IMG/VR virus record: IMGVR_UViG_3300028800_000314
Coordinates: 1 to 23,509 of that record
Direction: 5' to 3' (one strand)
Length of the DNA: 23,509 nucleotides
Source: a virus
Shown here piece after piece: positions 1 through 23,509 of the stretch; the stretch's first letter is position 1, and every line of letters begins with the position of its first letter. The translations under genes were made by a program, and so were the position numbers. The notes below the pieces were generated by a model. It did not search any database. It was not told the DNA's origin and was given only the letters and a program-made list of their open reading frames with translations.

Positions 1-255
1 CTTTTTAGAGGTTCCAAACCTTACTTGAAACCAAGTGTTTAAATTACTCATAACTTGAACGGCAAACGATAAAGCTACTTCTTTGTCTCCTTTAGCCTCA
101 AATATCGTTAAATTAGCCACTAAATTGATTCCTGATGATAAGATAAAATTTAATTTATCATCTTCATTTTTGTAAAATTTAGCAGCTTTCTTCTTTAAGT
201 ATCTTTCTATAACTGGCAATGTTTCTCGCAATCGTTGGTCTAAATCATCTTGCAT
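1..255 (-). CDS. Hypothetical protein, C-terminus cut by window edge
   Basis: Open frame of 85 codons from an ATG at 255, running off the left edge without a stop. The protein begins MQDDLDQRLRETLPVIERYL and continues through a lysine-rich patch (KKKAAKFYK), then a mixed hydrophobic part. No signal peptide, membrane segment or recognised domain is visible. The ATG shares one base with the stop of the gene upstream (TAATG arrangement). A good ribosome site, GGGAG, lies about 7 bases before it, so translation is probably coupled to that gene. It is the last visible member of a three-gene cluster of small unknown proteins. I do not recognise its family; the start is well supported. Confidence 0.7.
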   Translation of the reverse strand, partial: MQDDLDQRLRETLPVIERYLKKKAAKFYKNEDDKLNFILSSGINLVANLTIFEAKGDKEVALSFAVQVMSNLNTWFQVRFGTSKK

Positions 256-509
256 TAATATCTCCCTTTTTGCTCATCTTTCAAATCCCGTCCGCGTTGC
301 AAACAATCATGCTCAAAATGCTCATTAGGCGCTGTTTCTTCTTCCGGCGCTTCGTAATTCTCAACGTAATGATATGCACAATCTGCTATGCGCTCAATAG
401 CAGATAAATCAGAAACGACAACCAAATCATGAAACAATTCTAGTAACTGCCTCTCGTCCATGTTCTTAAGTCTTACAAGCATATGGCTGTAAATGTTATC
501 AATAATCAT
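255..509 (-). CDS. Hypothetical small acidic protein (84 aa)
   Basis: Complete 84-residue frame. It starts in an ATGA overlap with the stop of the upstream gene and ends in a one-base TAATG overlap with the next gene, which argues for a real, translationally coupled cistron. An AAGG ribosome site lies about 8 bases before the ATG. The first 50 residues look like two amphipathic helices (MDERQLLELFHDLVVVSDLS). The tail is acidic then basic, with EAPEEE and RGRDLKDEQKGRY. There is no membrane segment, Cys motif or recognised domain. The function is unknown. Similar small genes in phages are often host-modulating or regulatory, but nothing in this sequence shows that. Confidence 0.7.
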   Translation of the reverse strand: MIIDNIYSHMLVRLKNMDERQLLELFHDLVVVSDLSAIERIADCAYHYVENYEAPEEETAPNEHFEHDCLQRGRDLKDEQKGRY

Positions 510-772
510 GCGGTGGCCCTTCTCTCAATTATAATATCTCTCACCTTCTCACGATCTACACTATCACCATCAAACGGTAAGTTCTTATCGCGCTCTAATC
601 TTATTCCAGTCGCTAACAATACTTCGTCTCTCGTCGCATCCATCGCGTAAATCCCACCCTTACCGTAAAAACTTAATACGTAATCAACAAATTCTTTCAT
701 AGTTCTTAGTCCTCTCTTAATCCAGACCCCACTATACACGCAACCGTGTACTAACGCAACAACAACGGACAT
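506..772 (-). CDS. Hypothetical small protein (88 aa; 64 aa from internal start)
   Basis: First gene of the three-gene minus-strand cluster left of terL. Two in-frame starts each have a good ribosome site. The ATG at 772 is preceded by GAGGTGG with about 5 bases spacing, and a stop codon lies directly upstream. The ATG at 700 (residue 25) is preceded by GAGAGGA with about 9 bases spacing. The portion after residue 25 (MKEFVDYVLSFYGKGGIYAM) reads as an ordinary folded small protein. The first 24 residues are hydrophobic with Cys and Trp and could be a weak membrane or signal-like segment. Two products, with and without this segment, are possible. The family is not recognised. The stop overlaps the next gene's start (ATGA). 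Confidence 0.65.
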   Translation of the reverse strand: MSVVVALVHGCVYSGVWIKRGLRTMKEFVDYVLSFYGKGGIYAMDATRDEVLLATGIRLERDKNLPFDGDSVDREKVRDIIIERRATA

Positions 773-1060
773 TTATTCCACCTCATCTACCATTCCAACT
801 CATCTACGGCCATTTAGTAACAGCTTCGGACATTTGACCATCCTTTGGGTGACAGCCCTCAATCCCCAAAATCCCCCAAAATTCACATAATTTTTAAAGA
901 TTCTTTGGGGGGTATTAACCGGGGGCAGGGGTCGAAAATTGATTCCGGTGCCCCACAACTCTCTAATCTACTTCACCAGTTTTCCGACAAGGAGCGCGTG
1001 AAACTGCTTATTTTAAGCTGCGAAAGCGTCGCCAATAAAGTGTTGTGATTTTATTTATTA
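773..1060. other. Structured, apparently non-coding region with G/C tracts
   Basis: I see no convincing gene here. It has C-runs at 864-867 and 873-877, each followed by four A, and G-runs at 907-912, 921-925 and 928-931. CCCCCAAA at 873-880 pairs perfectly with TTTGGGGG at 904-911, and GGGGCA at 922-927 with TGCCCC at 949-954. A 9-base direct repeat CTCATCTAC occurs at 782-790 and 799-807. A TTG-started plus-strand frame at 845-1048 exists. Only its C-terminal half (LSNLLHQFSDKERVKLLILS) looks protein-like and there is no ribosome site, so it may be a gene remnant. Position beside terL makes a packaging or regulatory site conceivable; that is inference. Confidence 0.4.
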
Positions 1061-1186
1061 TTAATTTGTATTTAAGTTGTGAGAAATAAGTTGTGGGTAT
1101 TTGTGTAAAGTAATTAATTTACAAATTTGTTTCGTAGGTAGATTGGGGCATTGGTATGTCGTATAATCTTTTGTATTGCACCCCTA
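1061..1186. repeat. Inverted repeat, left copy (126 bp)
   Basis: This segment is the exact reverse complement of 23384-23509 at the right edge: 126 of 126 bases match by direct comparison. It covers the last codons of terL, its stop and 58 bp of downstream AT-rich DNA. The match stops at 1186/1187 (A then GG here, against A then AAG in the other copy). At the other end it runs to the last base of the window, so the true repeat may be longer. Confidence 0.97.
1073..1095 (+). repeat. Short direct repeat TAAGTTGTG x2 behind terL
   Basis: TAAGTTGTG occurs at 1073-1081 and 1087-1095, one repeat every 14 bases, with a related AAGTGTTGTG at 1038-1047. They lie in the AT-rich non-coding DNA just after the terL stop, inside the inverted repeat. 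Iteron-like spacing is suggestive of a protein-binding site, but two exact copies are weak evidence. Confidence 0.35.
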
Positions 1187-2429
1187 GGTACCTAAAAGCG
1201 TCAGCGATATGAACAGCCCAATTGTCTAAAGGTTTAGGTTCGAAACGTGCTTTTACTTCATCGTAATCTCGTTGATATTCACGTAATGCGCGCATAGCTA
1301 AATCGCAATTAGGTTTGTTAATTCTCATGCGTGGAAAAAGATAACGAACTGCTTCAATACCATCTTCAAAAGCCATCTTAGGAACCATTTGAAAGTGCCA
1401 GCCATTTCTACGAGCTTGCATCAAACGAGATTCAGCGTGTTCCCATCCTTGGTGTTTCTGGTCGATGTCATGTGGGCCGAAGTGATATCCCCATTGCAAT
1501 CCCATAGATTGACGAACTTTCTCAGCTTCGTCGAGATAAAATTTAAGACCACGGCCAGTATCATGAAGCAAATGAAGCACATGAATATATTTACCAGTGA
1601 CCTGAAAAAGGATTCCTGCTGTAGCATCTGTACCTCCTAAATCCCAAATAGAATGTAATTTTAAACGTGTATCTGGTCTGATTGCGCAGTATCTTCCTTC
1701 GCGCTCCATGTCGCTGATTTCGCGCGTGTAATAAGCGCCTAAGTTTCCGACTTCGAAATCAACATAGAACTCTTGTCGTATGAGTTCATCAGACATTCCG
1801 AGATCGCGCGCGCGCTTGATATCTTGCTTGTCGATAATAGGAGTAACACCATCATGCTTGAAGGTCTGTTCAACAGAGAGATGCTCAACGTGATAATCTG
1901 GCAAGTCTTTAACTTGCTGATAGACTTCATAACCATGATTCATTCCTCGCGGTGTGTATTGTAAAATTTCTTTACCTTTGTTCTGTACGATTATGGGATT
2001 AAGGTATTGTCTGGCGAGAGGATTGTGCAGACTAAATTCAGAATAAATAATTGTAACAGGATTAGAACCCATAAGACCGTCATAATTATTCGACCCGGCA
2101 AGAACAAGCTTGCTTCCATTGAACAAGTCAATCTCCATACGCGCTTCGTTCTTTTTGGAAACCAAGCAATCAGGTATCGCATCCATGAACGGTTTGCCAT
2201 CGAAGTCTAATCCTTGCCAGATGACGCTACGCGCCTGCTTATGCAATGGAAACAGGTAAACATGGGTTCCGACCCTACGCAATCCTCGTAACAACCAAGC
2301 TTGTAAAGAGAAGATATCCTTTCCTGCTCGTCGGTGGATAACCGCACACACGTTCTTATCATCGACCATAGCTTTAAACATGCGCGCCTGATGGGGGTAG
2401 GGACTAATATTCGGAATCTTGATGTAGAT
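1119..2429 (-). CDS. terL: Terminase large subunit (DNA-packaging motor ATPase/nuclease)
   Basis: Packages DNA into the prohead. Numbering from the proposed start: the adenine-site motif ISPYPHQ is at 8-14. A variant Walker A, HRRAGKD, is at 32-38 and Walker B, TIIYSEF, at 126-132. Coupling motif YTPRG is at 158-162. Nuclease aspartates lie in IWDLGG (261-266), PHDID (319-323) and HIADAFRYL near 410. The open frame runs back to a GTG at 2573, but those extra 48 codons read as junk, overlap another gene (2440-2637) and lack a ribosome site. TGAGGA at 2442-2437 sits 7 bases before an ATC codon at 2429, giving a typical TerL N-terminus (IYIKIPNISPYPHQ). The start is therefore ATC, or a base has been lost. 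About 436 residues, slightly short for the family. Function is confident, start is not. Confidence 0.9.
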   Translation of the reverse strand: MYIKIPNISPYPHQARMFKAMVDDKNVCAVIHRRAGKDIFSLQAWLLRGLRRVGTHVYLFPLHKQARSVIWQGLDFDGKPFMDAIPDCLVSKKNEARMEIDLFNGSKLVLAGSNNYDGLMGSNPVTIIYSEFSLHNPLARQYLNPIIVQNKGKEILQYTPRGMNHGYEVYQQVKDLPDYHVEHLSVEQTFKHDGVTPIIDKQDIKRARDLGMSDELIRQEFYVDFEVGNLGAYYTREISDMEREGRYCAIRPDTRLKLHSIWDLGGTDATAGILFQVTGKYIHVLHLLHDTGRGLKFYLDEAEKVRQSMGLQWGYHFGPHDIDQKHQGWEHAESRLMQARRNGWHFQMVPKMAFEDGIEAVRYLFPRMRINKPNCDLAMRALREYQRDYDEVKARFEPKPLDNWAVHIADAFRYLGVQYKRLYDIPMPQSTYETNL

Positions 2430-2436
2430 AAATCCA

Positions 2437-2442
2437 TCCTCA
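2437..2442 (-). promoter_or_regulatory. Ribosome-binding site that decides the terL start
   Basis: TGAGGA on the minus strand overlaps the stop codon (TGA) of the upstream gene and lies 7 bases before ATC at 2429. The same stop/ribosome-site overlap occurs at 2784 (TAGGAG) in this operon. It supports initiation near 2429 rather than at the distant GTG 2573 or ATG 2549, neither of which has such a site. Confidence 0.5.
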
Positions 2443-2637
2443 TGCCATCTCAGGCGAACTAGGCTCGCTATATTGGCCGTAAAGTGGTAAGGAATGCTTG
2501 GTATAAACGTGAGGGTGTGCCGCTGCTTCTTGCTGCATGCGGCGACCATACTTGTTGTATTCGAACGCTTCACGCTGCGCTGGGATGTTTCCTGGCTCTA
2601 TATTAACGTCCGCCATATTTTCTTGTTTCATGCTCAT
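2440..2637 (-). CDS. Hypothetical small protein upstream of terL (65 aa)
   Basis: 65-residue protein (MSMKQENMADVNIEPGNIPA onward). An open frame extends 7 codons further, but AGGAG lies 4 bases before the ATG at 2637 and about 10 before the second ATG at 2631, so the start is one of these. It overlaps the 3' end of the 55-residue gene by 35 bases in another frame, and its stop forms part of the terL ribosome site, so all three are likely coupled. The composition is Gln-, Glu-, Ala- and Pro-rich and polar, with a C-terminal stretch HSLPLYGQYSEPSSPEM; no domain is recognised. The long terL upstream extension is read from the same DNA in another frame, and this frame looks the more protein-like of the two. 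Confidence 0.65.
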   Translation of the reverse strand: MSMKQENMADVNIEPGNIPAQREAFEYNKYGRRMQQEAAAHPHVYTKHSLPLYGQYSEPSSPEMA

Positions 2638-10485: not shown

Positions 10486-12989
10486 GTCGTATGAACCTTA
10501 AGGTTCTTTTTAACCTGCTCTATATAACCAGGAAAATCTTTTTCAATATTTTTTGACGCCCTATTACCCAACCACCTTGCAAAGTTGCCTAACAAACTTG
10601 GTTTTTCGGCTTGTTGTGCGGTTCTTTCTCTTTGTTCCTTGATGTTGTTAGCTACAAATGCAGGATATCTAAATATCAAACCTTCATTAGTGTAATGCGG
10701 ATAATTTTCTCTAATATAGTTAGCACCACTTACAATTTTATCTCTATTAGGAATATAAACCATAGGCCCCATAGAAGGGTCTTGATAGGCTATACTAGAA
10801 ACACTGTTTCCAGTCTTAATGTTAACATCCCAATATCCAATCACTTGACCATTTTTATTTCTACTTAATGTGCTACCAGATTGTATGACCGTGTCATATT
10901 CATTAATAGAACCGTCACGGTGGTGCTGAATGAGTTTTGGGGGTGGCGAATTATTAAAATCTTCAATGGTTTTACGGGCTTTTTTTATCTCTGGTGAATT
11001 ATGTGATAAATCAAATATTCCAACTTTATTTGTCAATTCATCAACTCTATGGACGGCTTGAAAATATTCATCCAACGTAACATTAGGTTTTACTTCCCAA
11101 TATGAATCAGTAGCGCCTGAATCGTAAAACTTTTTAGAGTTTGCGAATTTTTCACTCATTTGGCCAGCTAAGTCATCATGCACAAACCCATCAGATCCAT
11201 CAGGTAGATCCAATACTTTTTTTATTGGGAATTGTGTATATTGTTTAAAGCCATTAACACTTTCATCCCCAAAAGTCATGGCTATATCTTCTTTAACACT
11301 GGCAGTAGCCATTGCTGCATCGCCATTGTAAAGCTTGAAATAACCTTCATATTTTGATTCAACAAAATCTGCTAACAGCGGTACGTTTACCATTCTATCT
11401 TTAGGAACATCGGCTATTCGTAATGCAAATGAATTCTTAGTATCGCCAGCACGTTTGTTGGCCTGATAGTGCTGATCAAAAGCAATATCATTGGCTTTAC
11501 GTTGTTGTTCTGTTTTGCCAATGACTGCTTCTTTAGCCATTTGTGCCGCAGTCGTTGGATCATGTGTGTCCCTGAATCCTTTGTACATTCTTAGCATAGC
11601 TTTTGCTTCATCAGACATGCCGATCAAGTTTTCTGGCTTTCTTGAAGCAACAATGTAATCTGTCGCAGCAAGTGCTTCATCCATTTGCTGAGGATTTCCG
11701 CTTAATGCCTTGCCATCTAATTTATTTGTATAACCTTTAATTGGGCCAGCAGCAGTGGCGGCTAATTGCATCTCAGCCTCGGATTGCGATATTCCTTTTT
11801 GCTGGGCTGAAGCATTTGCATTATGTTCTAAAGTATCCAGTTTTTGTTTATCAGTAAAATCTGAATTGAATTTATTATAATCAGACCACCCGGAAGTCAC
11901 ATCGGCAATACTTCCAATCTTTTTGGCATTCTCTATTTTTAACTTTTCATACCAAATTTGTTCATCAGAATATTGTTTATTAGTTAATGAATCTTTTAAT
12001 GCTAATAAATCTTGTGCTGCACTATCAGGATTAGTGATAGCATTTAATTGGAACTGCGATATCTTTAAAGCCTGATCTTGTGATTGCAAACTTTGCTGTT
12101 GATTGGCATAGGACATGACAGAATTAATTAATGATGGAAAATCAGCATCACTAATATTTTCAGGTTTTTTCATTAAACTTTTTAAAAATCCTTCACTAGT
12201 ACCATTTTTTAATGCTTCATCATATTTTCTTTGATATTGACCTGCTTGCATACTTCGTCTAGCTGAATCTACTCTTTGTTTAGCAGTAAGTGGGTCAAGT
12301 AAATTCTGAGCGACTAAAGCATTGTTTTGTTTTTCTACGTCTTTTACTGCTTGTTCAGCAGCTTTATCTTTACCGGCCACAGCCAAAGAATGTGTATTTT
12401 CAGAAAGTTTCACTGTCGATAATGCTATGTTATTTTTAGTATCTTCATGTTGTTCACTAATCATTCTATTTGATAAGCGCTCTTGTTGAGCGAGCATCAA
12501 ATTTCCATATTGATATTCCATCTGAGGCTGTATTGATGCGGGTGCATTTTTGAATATATTCTGCAAACCAAGCGCTATTTTTCCTTGTGTTTTAGCAATC
12601 AAATCAGGTGTAACGCGTGAGGCGCTAGCAACTTCAATATTTGAATCTGTTATGAGTTTATTAGCTTGCAAACCTAATGTTGCTTGGGCTTGAGTGTTGT
12701 AGCTTTCCTGCATTACTTTATCAAAGTCTGTAAGAGGTATGCCTATATCACCCTGGGGATTTTTACCAAGTTCACCGCCTAATTTTGTTGCTAAGGCATT
12801 CGATGCTTTGGCGGCTACGTTAGCGCCCAACTCTGACATCCAATTCGTATCAGCGGCATACTTACTTATCCCACCTTGAAGGTCTGGATTTGCAACAACT
12901 TCAGGCTTTACACCTTGACCTTCATATTTAGGTAGATCCGCACCTTTAGGAATCTCAGAAACATTATGTTTAAATTCCATATCAGCCAT
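10482..12989 (-). CDS. Internal virion protein, T7 gp15-like (835 aa)
   Basis: 835 residues (T7 gp15 is about 747), in the gene 15 position between the gp14-like and gp16-like genes. The chain is polar, Gln/Asn/Lys/Ala-rich and mostly helical by eye, with coiled-coil-like stretches between about 130 and 350 (ANQQQSLQSQDQALKISQFQ). There is no signal peptide or membrane segment. The N-terminus is Gly/Pro-rich and extended. GGGAG, which overlaps the end of the upstream gene, lies 7 bases before the ATG. The stop overlaps the next start by ATGA. In T7-like virions this protein forms a core ring and, after ejection, part of a periplasmic channel with gp16. The role is inferred from order, size and composition. 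Confidence 0.75.
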   Translation of the reverse strand: MADMEFKHNVSEIPKGADLPKYEGQGVKPEVVANPDLQGGISKYAADTNWMSELGANVAAKASNALATKLGGELGKNPQGDIGIPLTDFDKVMQESYNTQAQATLGLQANKLITDSNIEVASASRVTPDLIAKTQGKIALGLQNIFKNAPASIQPQMEYQYGNLMLAQQERLSNRMISEQHEDTKNNIALSTVKLSENTHSLAVAGKDKAAEQAVKDVEKQNNALVAQNLLDPLTAKQRVDSARRSMQAGQYQRKYDEALKNGTSEGFLKSLMKKPENISDADFPSLINSVMSYANQQQSLQSQDQALKISQFQLNAITNPDSAAQDLLALKDSLTNKQYSDEQIWYEKLKIENAKKIGSIADVTSGWSDYNKFNSDFTDKQKLDTLEHNANASAQQKGISQSEAEMQLAATAAGPIKGYTNKLDGKALSGNPQQMDEALAATDYIVASRKPENLIGMSDEAKAMLRMYKGFRDTHDPTTAAQMAKEAVIGKTEQQRKANDIAFDQHYQANKRAGDTKNSFALRIADVPKDRMVNVPLLADFVESKYEGYFKLYNGDAAMATASVKEDIAMTFGDESVNGFKQYTQFPIKKVLDLPDGSDGFVHDDLAGQMSEKFANSKKFYDSGATDSYWEVKPNVTLDEYFQAVHRVDELTNKVGIFDLSHNSPEIKKARKTIEDFNNSPPPKLIQHHRDGSINEYDTVIQSGSTLSRNKNGQVIGYWDVNIKTGNSVSSIAYQDPSMGPMVYIPNRDKIVSGANYIRENYPHYTNEGLIFRYPAFVANNIKEQRERTAQQAEKPSLLGNFARWLGNRASKNIEKDFPGYIEQVKKNLKVHTT
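10493..10506. repeat. Perfect 14-bp palindrome over a ribosome site
   Basis: GAACCTTAAGGTTC is a perfect palindrome at the 3' end of the gp15-like gene. It contains the AAGG that would serve the gp16-like start at 10485. In mRNA the arms could pair and hide this site, so the gp16-like gene may depend on coupled translation. A small effect at most. Confidence 0.5.
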
Positions 12990-17627: not shown

Positions 17628-18461
17628 TTAGATTGAGGTTTCATCGCAATCAACTTCGATAACACCTAAGTTATCAATCGTGATAGCGCCAGCCGAGAAA
17701 ATACCATTTATCAACCAAGATGTTTCTCTTGGCAAATAGTTAATTTCCGTACGGAAGTCATGACCAATACCCATGCCGGTTGATTGTTTATGCCATGCAA
17801 ATGTTTTACGAATTGCACCGGATAATGGCAATCCACCTTCAATCATTTGTGGGATGATGATGATGTTAATACCAAGGTATTCGCGTACAAATCCTTTATC
17901 TAACACTCTGTTTTGAGTGTAGAAGGTAGAAACGAACTGATCAGCGCCAAGTAATGCCGCGAAGTTACTAGCAGACATTGCCCAGAATCTTTCAGGTAAA
18001 GGCACTGCGTTATTATCAAAGAACTGGATCACTTCGCGATATTTAAGGTAAGTCATGTTCGTGCCGCCATTCGCAATGGTCTGGCCTGGGCTGACACCCA
18101 TTGCGTTGATGATGATCTGGTCTGAACGACGACCAAGAGCATTTGCGACTAGCATCGCATTTTCCATCTTCGCATCGAAGTTAACCGTTAACTCTTGAAC
18201 GCTATCGACTGCGGTTGGTGCAGTATATTTCTGCAAGATAGCATTGAAAGGCGCATAACCTGGATCTTGGATCACAACAGGCTGTAAGTAGCCAGTAGGA
18301 ACCGCTTGAATTTGGTTAACCTTACGGAAGGAAACCGTTGAACCGATAACGTCGCGTCTTACGCGAACTGTATCACGGAGTAAGAAACCGAGAGATTGAT
18401 ATTGTGCTTTAACGAGCGCATCAAATTCAATCTGTTGGACGGCTAGTAATGAAGTAGACAT
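17628..18461 (-). CDS. Major capsid protein (277 aa)
   Basis: Shell subunit. The 277-residue chain follows the scaffold gene and has the look of an HK97-fold coat protein. It has an N-terminal arm and E-loop region (VRVRRDVIGSTVSFRKVNQI, 32-51), then a P-domain helix with NALGRRSDQIIINAMG near 106-121. The LPERFWAMSASNFAALLG segment is near 154-171, and a C-terminal beta-rich part contains RETSWLINGIFSAGAI near 243-258. It is shorter than T7 gp10A (345). GGAG lies 8 bases before the ATG. A strong promoter (18595-18625) upstream and a terminator two genes downstream fit high expression. The assignment rests on position and family pattern; no cleavage site is evident. Confidence 0.85.
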   Translation of the reverse strand: MSTSLLAVQQIEFDALVKAQYQSLGFLLRDTVRVRRDVIGSTVSFRKVNQIQAVPTGYLQPVVIQDPGYAPFNAILQKYTAPTAVDSVQELTVNFDAKMENAMLVANALGRRSDQIIINAMGVSPGQTIANGGTNMTYLKYREVIQFFDNNAVPLPERFWAMSASNFAALLGADQFVSTFYTQNRVLDKGFVREYLGINIIIIPQMIEGGLPLSGAIRKTFAWHKQSTGMGIGHDFRTEINYLPRETSWLINGIFSAGAITIDNLGVIEVDCDETSI

Positions 18462-19632: not shown

Positions 19633-21276
19633 TTATTGTTGTGGTTGCGGGGGTGCTGCTTGGGCTGTTTGACCAGGTTCAGGTTGTGCGCCATTAGCAA
19701 TCGCTTCATTATGCTGATCTTGAACCTGCTGCATAACACGTTTTACATCGTCTGGTTTATTTAATAATCGCTTATCAAGTTGCATGTAATCGGCAATCAT
19801 ATACGGCGCTGTTTCATGATTAATATAAAGCTGCGCTGCCTCTGGGCCTAATATACCTTGTAAGGTCTGAACATACTGAATCAATTTTTCAACTTCAGCG
19901 CGTCCTTTAGCAAGCGCTAGAGGGGATTTGTACTTAAATACAATAGGTACATTTCCCACCTTGGGATAGGGTAAAATACCCATCGAATTCAGGATATGAG
20001 CAAATCGTTTGATAACAGGCCATAACATTTCCTGTTGCATTCGGGTGAATATTGGCCCGATTTTTTCTGCAAGATTTTGTTGCTTCAGTGATAACTCATA
20101 ACGTGTCTGTGGCTGTACGCCCTTTTGATCGCTTGGTTCTTCTGCGAATAATAATGCCTTAATTTGCATACGAAGATCAGCTGCTGTCATCTGCGCGAAT
20201 TCAGGATTAGCACTGTTAGGTAAAGGTATGAGAGGCACCTGACCATTAGTACCAACAGGGGCAATAGGAATAATTGAGAAAGGCTGCAACTTAAAAGTAT
20301 GAGGATTAAAGATAGCATCAGAGAATCCCATGTAAGGTCTGAATGTATTTAAGTTAGCAGAAGCTAATTCAATACGAGCCAATTCATTTAAACTGATAAT
20401 GGAAGGTAATGCTTCCATGACCGGGCCACGGCCCCATGTTTCGTTATTGCATTTCTTCCAGCGCCATACAATACCAGGGCTTGAATCTAACCATTGAACA
20501 AATAGGATGTCATTATCAGCCCATACTGCATAGCAATATTTCTTTGGCTGATTGACAAAGTAAGCAACTCCTTCATATATATTACGTACCACCGCATCAG
20601 GATCAGCGGCGATCATTGATAACATATCGGTAGATAAATAAATGCCAGGCCAGCGAGTGTGAAGCTCATTGATCTTTAAATTTTGCCATGTCCTAAACCA
20701 TGACTCCACATTGCCATTAACTGCTTCTTCAATAGCTAGTTTGTCAGCAGGTATGCTAGTGCATAAAAAAGGCTGATCATCAGTATATTGATTGATAACA
20801 AGAGCAGAAGTGCCGATAGATAGATCATAATAGCACTCATTAATTACTACATCGAAATTAGAAGCGTGAATGAATACGAATAGTTGTCGCATATAAGCGT
20901 CAAGGATCGCTTGTGCTTCTTCTATTATCTTTAATGTATCAGCGTCTTTTGTATCTCTAACGCTTGATGTATCAACCTCTAGGAAGCCCCATTGAGTCTG
21001 CGGGGGCGTCATCGCATCATGCAATTTAGAAACGAACGTGGTGACACCCTCTACTGCGGTAGTGTCATAGACGCGTGTATTCTGGATGGTACCTTGAAAT
21101 TCTTTTCCAGGCAGGTAATATCGATTGCGGAAAGGGACTGCATAGAAGAAGCACGCCTGCTGAATTGGAATCCACAGATCGGCCACATACTTCGCGGCAT
21201 TATAACGTTTACGTAGAGTCTCTAAGAGCGAACCGCCCGGCATAGCTACTGGGGGCATTCCCTGGGTAGTATCCAT
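19633..21276 (-). CDS. Portal / head-tail connector protein (547 aa)
   Basis: Dodecameric ring at the packaging vertex, docking site for terminase and adaptor. Its length equals that of T7 gp8 (536). Motifs of the podovirus head-tail connector family are visible: RYNAAKYVADLWIPIQQACF at 24-43, with W-x-x-I-x-x-A-x-x-x-x-x-P after it. VEGVTTFVSKLHDAMTPPQT lies at 75-94. YDLSIGTSALVI is near 150-161 and GRGPVMEALPSI at 282-293, followed by the long stem helix with NELARIE. The C-terminal tail is Gln/Pro-rich. AGGTGG lies 7 bases before the ATG at 21276, and a TAA and TGA immediately precede the start. One of the surest calls in the window. Confidence 0.92.
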   Translation of the reverse strand: MDTTQGMPPVAMPGGSLLETLRKRYNAAKYVADLWIPIQQACFFYAVPFRNRYYLPGKEFQGTIQNTRVYDTTAVEGVTTFVSKLHDAMTPPQTQWGFLEVDTSSVRDTKDADTLKIIEEAQAILDAYMRQLFVFIHASNFDVVINECYYDLSIGTSALVINQYTDDQPFLCTSIPADKLAIEEAVNGNVESWFRTWQNLKINELHTRWPGIYLSTDMLSMIAADPDAVVRNIYEGVAYFVNQPKKYCYAVWADNDILFVQWLDSSPGIVWRWKKCNNETWGRGPVMEALPSIISLNELARIELASANLNTFRPYMGFSDAIFNPHTFKLQPFSIIPIAPVGTNGQVPLIPLPNSANPEFAQMTAADLRMQIKALLFAEEPSDQKGVQPQTRYELSLKQQNLAEKIGPIFTRMQQEMLWPVIKRFAHILNSMGILPYPKVGNVPIVFKYKSPLALAKGRAEVEKLIQYVQTLQGILGPEAAQLYINHETAPYMIADYMQLDKRLLNKPDDVKRVMQQVQDQHNEAIANGAQPEPGQTAQAAPPQPQQ

Positions 21277-21279
21277 TCA

Positions 21280-21597
21280 TTAACCACCTAAATTATCAGT
21301 CATTCCTGGCTGTGCTGAATCTTGCCCACCTAAAAAGCTAGGTGCGCGATAATTGCGTCGTAAATTGCGTATTTGCTTTTCTTCAACGCGACGTTTCTCA
21401 CTTGCTACTTCGTTACGCTTAGCATTAAGTTCGTCTCGCGTGATTTCACTTTGTTCTTTATAAGCTTTCATTTGCTGATTGATTTGATCTTGTTGTGCGC
21501 GACGCTGTGATGCGTCAGGCGAACCAGTTATTTTATTATAAGCTTTTCCTACTGCTTCCAATTCACCTTTACCAGTTACCCAATCATACCATGCCAT
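21280..21597 (-). CDS. Small coiled-coil protein upstream of portal (105 aa)
   Basis: The open frame begins at 21618, but AAGGAG lies 7 bases before the ATG at 21597, so the protein is MAWYDWVTGKGELEAVGKAY onward. Residues 30-80 are strongly charged, helical and likely coiled coil (RRAQQDQINQQMKAYKEQSE; AKRNEVASEKRRVEEKQ). The C-terminus is Arg-rich then Gly/Pro-rich. No membrane segment or signal peptide. It lies between the 44-residue gene and the portal, three bases from the latter. Possible roles are a minor head component or assembly chaperone; nothing in the sequence decides. Confidence 0.72.
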   Translation of the reverse strand: MAWYDWVTGKGELEAVGKAYNKITGSPDASQRRAQQDQINQQMKAYKEQSEITRDELNAKRNEVASEKRRVEEKQIRNLRRNYRAPSFLGGQDSAQPGMTDNLGG

Positions 21598-21608
21598 TTC
21601 GTTGCTCC

Positions 21609-21743
21609 TTAAATCCATATATGAACGTAGATAGTCTTTTCCTCAAATTCATCTGGCATCATCTCACGATCAACATAGACAATGCGCCATGGTATCTTAA
21701 TCTTTTTGCGCAATTCGTTTATTTGTGCTTGAATTGTTGCCAT
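21609..21743 (-). CDS. Tiny protein nested at the terS 3' end (44 aa)
   Basis: A 44-residue frame starting MATIQAQINELRKKIKIPWR and ending TIYVHIWI. Its first 15 codons overlap the terS tail in another frame, and its stop lies just before the ribosome site of the following gene. A helical N-terminus (IQAQINELRKKI) leads to a beta-like core (WRIVYVDREMMPDEFEEKTI). The codon sequence fills an otherwise unexplained 85-base gap and reads as a globular protein. The ribosome site is weak; ATG at 21743 or, two codons earlier, at 21749 could start it, so translation may depend on terS translation. Function unknown. Confidence 0.6.
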   Translation of the reverse strand: MATIQAQINELRKKIKIPWRIVYVDREMMPDEFEEKTIYVHIWI

Positions 21744-22293
21744 TAGCATTGGCCGCCATAGTCTCTTGGTTAGATTTTAGCTCATCAATTTGTTTTTGTA
21801 ACTCGAAAGTTTGGTGAACATTTAACCCAACGTTAATAGCTTCCATTAGCTGCTTGATTTCGCTCGCGGTAAAATCACCGTTTGCTGCTTGCTTTAATAG
21901 CTGTCCATAATGCACAAGTGGACTTGCTTCGGGATCAAGATCAAGCTTAATGCGTGAGTTCTTACTAATGCCAAAGCGTGACCAACCCATCATTTTCCAA
22001 TGCTCAAAAGCATAATCTACTACCCCTATTGGCATCTCACGATCACGAATTCTCTCACCTTCTCTTTCCCATGCTTCACGTGCGAATGCCTTGCCCATGG
22101 CATAACATATGGCAAATAACGGATGTTTAGCACACCAATTATAGACAGTTGTCTCTGTAACAAGCGCTTCACAACAAAATGCGCTAAGTCGGCATTTCTC
22201 TAACATCATTCTCAAGATTAACTTCGGGTGGATTTCTTCATCGTAGATTGTAGGTCTGGTTTTTATTTTCTCGAATATTTTATCTATATCCAT
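21697..22293 (-). CDS. terS: Terminase small subunit (198 aa)
   Basis: DNA-recognition part of the packaging enzyme. Residues 36-55 form a helix-turn-helix-like unit (LSAFCCEALVTETTVYNWCA). It is followed by the pattern H-x-x-F-A-x-x-x-x-x-G-x-A-x-A-x-x-x-W-E-x-x-G (57-79) typical of small terminases. WKMMGWSRFGISKNS follows near 99-113. A helical oligomerisation region and a Gln/Asn/Ser-rich tail come after. AGGA lies 8 bases before the ATG at 22293. It heads the main virion operon, whereas terL lies about 20 kb away at the far end behind the tail fibre, unlike T7 where the two are close together. The tail overlaps a 44-residue gene. Confidence 0.82.
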   Translation of the reverse strand: MDIDKIFEKIKTRPTIYDEEIHPKLILRMMLEKCRLSAFCCEALVTETTVYNWCAKHPLFAICYAMGKAFAREAWEREGERIRDREMPIGVVDYAFEHWKMMGWSRFGISKNSRIKLDLDPEASPLVHYGQLLKQAANGDFTASEIKQLMEAINVGLNVHQTFELQKQIDELKSNQETMAANANGNNSSTNKRIAQKD

Positions 22294-22352: not shown

Positions 22353-22823
22353 ATGCTAAATAGCGCGCAATTACGTGAGCTTGTTATTATACCAGCATTA
22401 CGCGATCTTGTTATGTTATCCGATGATGCGGTTGAATTATTAATGTTTACAGTTGCCGTCGAATCAAATGGTGGTTCTTACTTAAAACAAATAGAAGGCC
22501 CTGCATTGGGTATCTATCAAATGGAGCCAGAAACTTACAATGATATATGGCAAAACTATATCAATAACCAATTCAGATTGGTCGGTCTTATGGTATCAAA
22601 TTTTGATTGCATCAGGATGCCAAGCGAGGACAGACTTATATACGATCTTCGCTTTGCCACTGCAATGGCTCGCATACATTATGCAAGGGTTCCACAGAAG
22701 TTGCCTGACAAGAATCACATCCTTGCCATGTGGGCTTATTACAAAACATATTACAATAGCTCAAAAGGCGCTGCTGAATGCGTCAAATCAATTGAGAAAT
22801 ACAAAGCGTTTATTAATCTTTAA
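22353..22823 (+). CDS. Lysozyme / lytic transglycosylase-like protein (156 aa)
   Basis: Probable peptidoglycan hydrolase. The catalytic glutamate is expected in FTVAVESNGG (E37), followed by KQIEGPALGIYQMEPETYND (45-64). The G-I-Y-Q core corresponds to the G-[LIV]-x-Q motif of SLT/goose-type lysozyme folds. A third motif-like segment, AMWAYYKTYYNSSKGAAE, lies near 128-145, where these enzymes have A-Y-N. There is no signal peptide or membrane segment, so if it is the endolysin it needs a holin, and none is seen here. It stands alone on the plus strand, divergent from terS, and overlaps the end of the convergent gene by 11 bases. The ribosome site is weak (GGAA about 10 bases upstream). Confidence 0.75.
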   Translation: MLNSAQLRELVIIPALRDLVMLSDDAVELLMFTVAVESNGGSYLKQIEGPALGIYQMEPETYNDIWQNYINNQFRLVGLMVSNFDCIRMPSEDRLIYDLRFATAMARIHYARVPQKLPDKNHILAMWAYYKTYYNSSKGAAECVKSIEKYKAFINL

Positions 22824-23058
22824 TCTCAATATAATTCTTAATTAAAATGCTCGTCGAGATATTATTAAAACAAACGCGGCAAAGCAGCTTGGTAACGCGC
22901 TTCATTCTCACACCTTCAACCGGCTTACCGTTTAGGATGTTAGACTCACTCCATTCAATAGGAATGTAATCGTGCGGCCCACCATTCTTTCCACACTTCT
23001 CTATCGCGTCTTTCTTACGTTGTGCATCTAAATTATCTTGTGCTGGGGTTAGGCTCAT
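22813..23058 (-). CDS. Small protein with possible zinc site (81 aa)
   Basis: The frame opens at 23085, but GAGGA lies 6 bases before the ATG at 23058, which also overlaps the upstream stop (ATGA). The 81-residue protein has Cys near 22, His near 29 and a C-R-V-C pair near 60-63 (KLLCRVCFNN). The spacing could bind one zinc ion as a C-x6-H ... C-x2-C ribbon. The N-terminal helix is Gln/Lys/Asp-rich. Its 3' end overlaps the convergent lysozyme-like gene by 11 bases. Function unknown; a small nucleic-acid-binding or host-interacting protein is one possibility. Confidence 0.65.
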   Translation of the reverse strand: MSLTPAQDNLDAQRKKDAIEKCGKNGGPHDYIPIEWSESNILNGKPVEGVRMKRVTKLLCRVCFNNISTSILIKNYIEIKD

Positions 23059-23369
23059 TTGATTTCCTCTTCTAATTTTTCCCAATATTCAATTTCATCA
23101 AAGTAATCAGCCATCCAGAATAAAGCGTCTAGATATCCTTTTTTAACTCCTTTCATATATATGGTTTTCTCTTCTTCCGAACAGCCACTGTAAACATCTC
23201 TATCGTTCCAAAGATAATGATTCTTGATTACTTTTTTTAATGCTTCTCTAATTTCTACTGTTGAATGCTTCTCTAAACATCCATCGCACATTACATTTGT
23301 AAATATTTCATTATCATAAATCTTATTGCATGAATCACAATCAAATGTAAAATTAACGTTAACTGTCAT
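23055..23369 (-). CDS. Cys-rich small protein with zinc-ribbon-like N-terminus (104 aa)
   Basis: The frame runs up to an ATG at 23414, but those first 15 codons lie mostly inside the inverted repeat, where the DNA is the reverse strand of the terL end. The ATG at 23369 (MTVNVNFTFDCDSCNKIYDN) is likely the true start, with an AAGAG site about 10 bases upstream. C-D-S-C (11-14) and C-D-G-C (28-31) form a probable C-x2-C/C-x2-C zinc site. The rest is helical and acidic (KKGYLDALFWMADYFDEIEY). It is coupled to the next gene by ATGA. The upstream region appears replaced by the terL copy, so its natural promoter is not visible here. Family not recognised. Confidence 0.65.
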   Translation of the reverse strand: MTVNVNFTFDCDSCNKIYDNEIFTNVMCDGCLEKHSTVEIREALKKVIKNHYLWNDRDVYSGCSEEEKTIYMKGVKKGYLDALFWMADYFDEIEYWEKLEEEIK

Positions 23370-23383
23370 TTGATTTTTCTCTT

Positions 23384-23509
23384 TAGGGGTGCAATACAAA
23401 AGATTATACGACATACCAATGCCCCAATCTACCTACGAAACAAATTTGTAAATTAATTACTTTACACAAATACCCACAACTTATTTCTCACAACTTAAAT
23501 ACAAATTAA
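23384..23509. repeat. Inverted repeat, right copy (126 bp) at window end
   Basis: Exact reverse complement of 1061-1186. Read on the plus strand it encodes the last residues of TerL (GVQYKRLYDIPMPQSTYETN, then L and stop) followed by the AT-rich TAAGTTGTG repeats in inverse. There is no terL body next to it, so this is a detached terL end joined to the small Cys-rich gene. The sequence stops with the repeat, so its real extent is unknown. Confidence 0.97.

Follow-up and report, generated by a model that had tools for sequence, protein, structure and literature searches.

An exact inverted copy of the terL 3' end in an uncultured podovirus-like phage points to a circular genome of two modules separated by inverted repeats

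The DNA analysed here (the window) is an entire IMG/VR contig of 23,509 bp, classed as 'linear'. We read it as most of an uncultured podovirus-like genome, comprising the virion module (V), one copy of an inverted repeat (X), about 0.8 kb of a second, early/recombination module (E), and 126 bp of the other copy of X. The genome would be a circular map V-X-E-X' of about 33–37 kb, in which the two inverted copies of X recombine and E can invert relative to V; judged from assembled sequences, this explanation as a whole has a probability of roughly 0.8. Across the contigs compared, the inverted repeat is real, its position is conserved, and its copies are homogenised within each genome.

Results

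Positions 23384–23509 of the window are the reverse complement of positions 1061–1186 at 126 of 126 bases (100%), with 22197 nt between the copies. The sequence-only reading had described this perfect inverted copy of the terL 3' end, and it was confirmed by a repeat search, in which it was the sole inverted pair in the window, and by a blast of the contig against itself. A chance origin of an exact match of 126 bases is excluded. The left copy (1061–1186, plus strand) is the V-side end of X on the terL side and contains the last ~22 codons of terL (1119–1186) plus AT-rich DNA downstream. The right copy (23384–23509, minus strand) occupies the equivalent position to that in relatives and forms the first 126 bp of the second X, on the side of the small terminase gene (terS). 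The inner end of the repeat, at 1186/1187, is a true boundary, marked by a mismatch between 1187 (G) and 23383 (T, where C would be needed). The outer end at 23509 is merely the end of the record, and the contig stops inside the right copy.

V extends from inside terL to a small Cys-rich gene (1187–23383), with X at both sides and boundaries kept in relatives. The gene for the large terminase subunit, terL (1119–2573, minus strand), is given as the longest ORF from GTG, has its 3' end inside X, and is aligned by the TerL proteins of relatives from about residue 47. The portal or head–tail connector (19633–21276, minus strand; PF12236, E 2e-62) and the major capsid protein (17628–18461, minus strand; phrog_3437, E 6e-37) were recognised by family matches. 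The putative terS (21697–22293, minus strand) was named from its position only, with no family match in Pfam/NCBIfam. The only sizeable plus-strand gene on the virion side (22353–22823) matched phrog_3108 (function unknown; E 1e-34), and by eye its protein looks like a lytic transglycosylase or lysozyme type. The Cys-rich gene adjoining the right junction (23055–23369, minus strand) has an ORF that extends into the repeat to 23414. The loss of its upstream region at the junction had been taken as favouring an artefact; this argument did not hold, as unique V sequence contains both the likely start at 23369 and an AAGAG-type ribosome site, and relatives carry homologous V sequence near the same junction.

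On the other side of the left X, window positions 1–772 are homologous, in order and orientation, to positions 193–708 of a long relative (G023), where they form one end of E (the E_a end). By this homology, the window contains the start of E with three small genes on the minus strand (506–772, 255–509, and 1–255). Pfam/NCBIfam searches of these genes gave nothing, and a window E_a protein used as a query retrieved only remote homologues in unrelated contigs. The full X in the window is probably about 773–1186 (about 414 bp), because a GAGGTGG ribosome site precedes the start of the small E_a gene at 772. This extent follows the X/E boundary of relatives, which have a homologous X, and X could reach further left.

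More than 50 relatives were gathered by portal and TerL searches of viral contigs, and many of the long ones were ~21–24 kb. Of the 42 family contigs longer than 15 kb, at least 22 carried an exact separated inverted repeat of at least 60 bases, and many of the other 20 lack one side, so absence there tells little. For unrelated full-length viral contigs, drawn from chance hits of a 14-base pattern scan, the corresponding number was 0 of 67, counting either such a repeat or an inverted-copy contig end. Nearly all of the family repeats pair the contig's own terL 3' end with the flank on the terS side, ~20–24 kb off and before terS, and the recurrence reaches down to about 55–57% portal identity. 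A TerL protein search independently recovered the C-terminal fragment, up to about 55 residues, inverted at the far (terS) side (G014 and G016).

The sequence-only reading had also proposed a chimera or assembly artefact, in which the right 126 bp would result from a k-mer misjoin or from strand switching during amplification and would be absent from the phage. The contig does terminate within the repeat, the repeat length is near a common k, and the end overlaps of relatives are k-like as well (127, 127, 123, 123, and 99 bp, and 69–70 bp [70, 70, and 69] for two contigs of metagenome 3300045391). Against this, the comparison with related phages around terL, which that reading had suggested as a check, showed over 20 contigs with the inverted terL end at this site, nearly all from different metagenomes and each with its own, unrelated repeat sequence. 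In ten relatives (G006, G007, G008, G014, G016, G022, G023, G027, G044, and G046), the terS-side copy lay inside the contig between two unique flanks, and the unrelated contigs of the baseline had no such repeats. An artefact is thus highly improbable; it is refuted as the origin of the repeat and is left only to explain the end of the contig at 23509. Assemblers collapse the repeat, so that contigs break off at X with overlaps of roughly k-mer length, and the earlier remark on k-mer length was correct for where the contig ends and wrong for the repeat being unreal.

The repeat copies were about 100% identical within a genome, and the window's repeat was 43–59% identical to those of relatives. 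As the nearest relative's TerL is 89–90% identical to that of the window, yet the repeats diverge to this extent between genomes and not within them, the copies undergo concerted evolution. Long overlaps, where present, show few differences between the copies: 217 bp were identical in G022, followed by three differences near the contig end, and four were found in G004 close to the terL boundary. No long separated inverted repeats were found in the cultured remote relatives MEP301, Hodr, Vibrio 1.179.O, HTVC010P, and ZP6, and SI2 had one of 29 bp only; the structure is therefore not needed for this kind of virion. A scan of bacterial genomes returned one short MAG contig only, from a Burkholderiales bin. 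The relative L194 (CAIKYO010000050.1; 69% portal identity), binned in a Burkholderiales MAG, represents a weak host hint or a mis-binning.

In six long contigs (G008, G016, G022, G023, G027, and G044), the order is E-X-V and each end runs back into X: the left end repeats the E-side end of X in inverted form (an overlap of just 24 bp in G008), and the right end does so for the V-side end. E and V thus each enter X at either end, for which a circle V-X-E-X' is the simplest genome. Two near-identical inverted copies separating two unique regions were thus found, the second of them partially, over no more than 234 bp (G022), and in the six contigs both unique regions meet the repeat at both ends, giving a circular map. 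In relatives, V was 20–24 kb and E was 7–13 kb, and X ranged from 0.54 kb (G022) to 1.19 kb (G023) by the coordinates of the long contigs. None of the records examined contained two complete X copies bordered on both sides by unique sequence. Stand-alone E contigs, which this model predicts, were not found, perhaps as IMG/VR selects on viral hallmark genes.

X could alternatively be a packaging or genome-end structure, that is, the terminal inverted repeat of a linear genome and not an internal repeat. In its favour, X abuts terL and contains a conserved element, and many contigs of about 22 kb have inverted repeats at both ends. The contigs that run through X into E on either side argue against this, as do the 22-kb contigs, which are without early genes, and the entry of both E ends into X. 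We consider a genome end improbable and retain the circle with two internal copies of X.

The V-side border of X lies inside terL at a codon that differs among genomes, and therefore a partial terL end is present in the second copy. The E-side border coincides with the 5' ends of the two terminal genes of E in G013/L032/G029, L027/L028, G016, G022, and G012. In the G013 strain, GGGAGAGAGAGGATGAGT is the common sequence in front of two different proteins (MSELTDAE.. and MSNDVVKE..), and similar arrangements were seen in L027/L028, G016, and G022. In G012, two different proteins are preceded by a common signal-peptide-like stretch (..LLLAASLPLPAIA) encoded in X; at the E ends of this genome (L204 1–113 and 10558–10670), two unlike small proteins have one identical, repeat-encoded N-terminus of this type. 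A shared start codon at the boundary was less clear in G008, G023, G027, and G044. A DnaJ-domain gene lies inside X in G013 (21035–22185) and G027 (11151–11648), presumably in two copies per genome.

A conserved element of ~73 bp lies in X downstream of terL (907–979 in the window, minus strand), with the pattern CTGG-N~16-AGAGAGTTGTGGGGCACCGGAATC-N~12-CCCC-rich. With its ACCGGA core and C-tracts, it was alignable in 16 genomes, in a multiple alignment supplemented by pairwise matches, although the repeats of those genomes are otherwise about 50% alike; it is not consistently coding. It is a candidate origin, packaging, or regulatory site. No Rfam match was found in window positions 1–2000, and a tRNA search also found none. 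Promoter and terminator scans in X gave no excess over shuffles, and a promoter in X would be conjectural.

E is collinear among relatives, and X has a fixed orientation relative to V. In the assemblies, E was found joined to V either way round. The terS-side X leads into the E_a end in G008, G016, G022, G029, and L027, and into the opposite end (E_b) in G023, G006, G012, G027, G014, L032, L028, G044, G030, and L216; the terL-side X leads into E_a in the window and into E_b in G001 and G013. L032 and G013 were assigned to E_b by gene order, as their summed scores were mixed owing to one gene that moved in that subclade. Two same-strain sets showed both orientations. G013, L032, and G029 are 100% identical over V and the 1151-bp X; G013 reads terL-X-E_b and L032 reads E_b-X-terS, while G029 carries the other E end and departs from L032 exactly at the X/E boundary. 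L027 and L028 are 99.95% identical in V and have opposite ends of E attached. The fourth junction of the G013 strain, terL-X-E_a, was searched for and not found. Both isomers probably coexist, with the qualification that short-read joins through an exact X of ~1 kb may be arbitrary.

That qualification is the basis of another explanation, in which the repeats are real and the genome does not flip: each strain would have one orientation, and the mixture would come from arbitrary assembler choices at a collapsed repeat. X (0.4–1.2 kb) is longer than typical short-read spans, and every same-strain contig contains a single join only, assemblies alone having been examined. However, both orientations occur across many lineages as well as in the two same-strain sets, the identity of copies within a genome requires recombination or conversion between them, and E holds a set of recombination genes. 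A fixed orientation is therefore unlikely, although it deserves more weight than the other alternatives. For the proposal in the sequence-only reading that a real inverted repeat frames the virion module and may flank an invertible segment, the relatives support the framing, and flipping itself would follow from recombination between the copies.

E encodes an exonuclease VIII-like (RecE-like) protein (phrog_412, E 4e-66), RusA, and an O-like replication initiator. A weak RecT match, below the Pfam cut-off, was found in G012. In the recombination gene region, at the place of the weak RecT match of other relatives, G022 (L177 5046–5948) and its homologues encode a phrog_3657 protein (E 1e-100; function unknown), a candidate new single-strand annealing protein. 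The early module of G008 (in its terL-last orientation) also contains a gene (11193–11780) with a bacterial RNA polymerase alpha-CTD domain (PF03118, E 2e-20), whose product is a possible host transcription modulator.

Inversion by a dedicated site-specific recombinase, as for the Mu G or P1 C segment, would also produce the flip-like arrangement, and the conserved ~73-bp element in X could be read in its favour. None of 22 records, some of them partial, had a tyrosine (PF00589) or serine (PF00239) recombinase, with positive controls detected in 14/14 and 10/14 genomes; a host recombinase or an unknown enzyme could still act. In addition, the repeats are far longer than usual inversion sites, and the halves are whole modules and not tail-fibre variants. 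We regard a dedicated recombinase as quite improbable. As no tyrosine or serine recombinase was found and E has RecE-like and RusA genes, homologous recombination most likely accounts for both homogenisation and flipping.

Discussion

In the proposed mechanism, homologous recombination between the copies of X would keep them identical and would invert E relative to V, with the RecE-like exonuclease, the RecT-like protein, and the RusA resolvase of the phage assisting. On its V side, X would supply the terL 3' end; for the two E-end genes, in the majority of the genomes examined, it would also provide the start codon with its ribosome site (or the signal peptide), and the two arms of E could thereby have X as a common leader. 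Inversion would leave every gene intact, because the terL 3' end and the start region of both E arms are present in either copy. A double-rolling-circle (DRCR) model has been described for inverted-repeat replicons (PMC3147054). By analogy with the role proposed for it in the 2-micron plasmid, chloroplasts, and HSV, X might serve this type of replication. A broader view is tentative and, in our judgement, rather doubtful: a widespread uncultured podovirus-like clade may have an obligately isomerising quadripartite genome, with repeats that are shared leaders and the engine of double-rolling-circle replication, and isomers that are functionally equivalent.

A structure resembling an assembly error is here a conserved genome architecture. 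It explains the truncated 'linear' contigs of the clade, which often measure about 22 kb and in some cases begin and end precisely at the repeat, and it accounts for the lack of a complete genome among the contigs examined. End repeats of k-mer length should not be dropped as artefacts before relatives are checked. The clade could also provide a small phage system in which to study inverted-repeat isomerisation, which is debated for chloroplasts and herpesviruses.

No literature on such a phage clade was found, aside from a Xanthomonas precedent. In Xanthomonas phage BsXeu269p/3 (Kantovirinae), inverted repeats broke the assembly, the gaps were sequenced for both contig orders, and the authors suggested that the repeats are a recombination site (PMC9968065). 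In its record (ON996340), we found inverted repeats of 197 bp (100% identity; 28117–28313 and 45603–45799). BsXeu269p/3, KPhi1, MYK3, and phiXaf18 resemble the present phage in having a circularly permuted genome cut in two by inverted repeats, one of them near terL, and in the presence of RusA; they differ in their larger genome, their DNA polymerase and helicase, and their gene order. The KPhi1 and phiXaf18 records match across the junction as in BsXeu269p/3, with no flipped isomer seen there.

Phages Mu (G) and P1 (C) have segments bounded by inverted repeats that occur in two orientations, and these are small tail-fibre switches with a serine recombinase. In our phage, by contrast, whole genome halves are involved, no recombinase was found, and no gene would be altered by inversion. 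The yeast 2-micron plasmid and HSV-1 are similar in having two halves that are split by inverted repeats, and the inversion of these halves relative to each other parallels that proposed here; no Flp-like recombinase was found in this phage, which encodes RecE/RecT/RusA-type proteins. The quadripartite chloroplast genome, with its two isomers, shares two unique regions, two identical inverted copies with borders in or at genes, concerted evolution, and, as far as the phage assemblies show, variable orientation of one region, whereas its repeats are tens of kb long compared with 0.4–1.2 kb in this phage, whose isomers are deduced from assemblies. The arrangement is already known in kind, from the Xanthomonas phages and from the topology of chloroplast, HSV, and 2-micron genomes.
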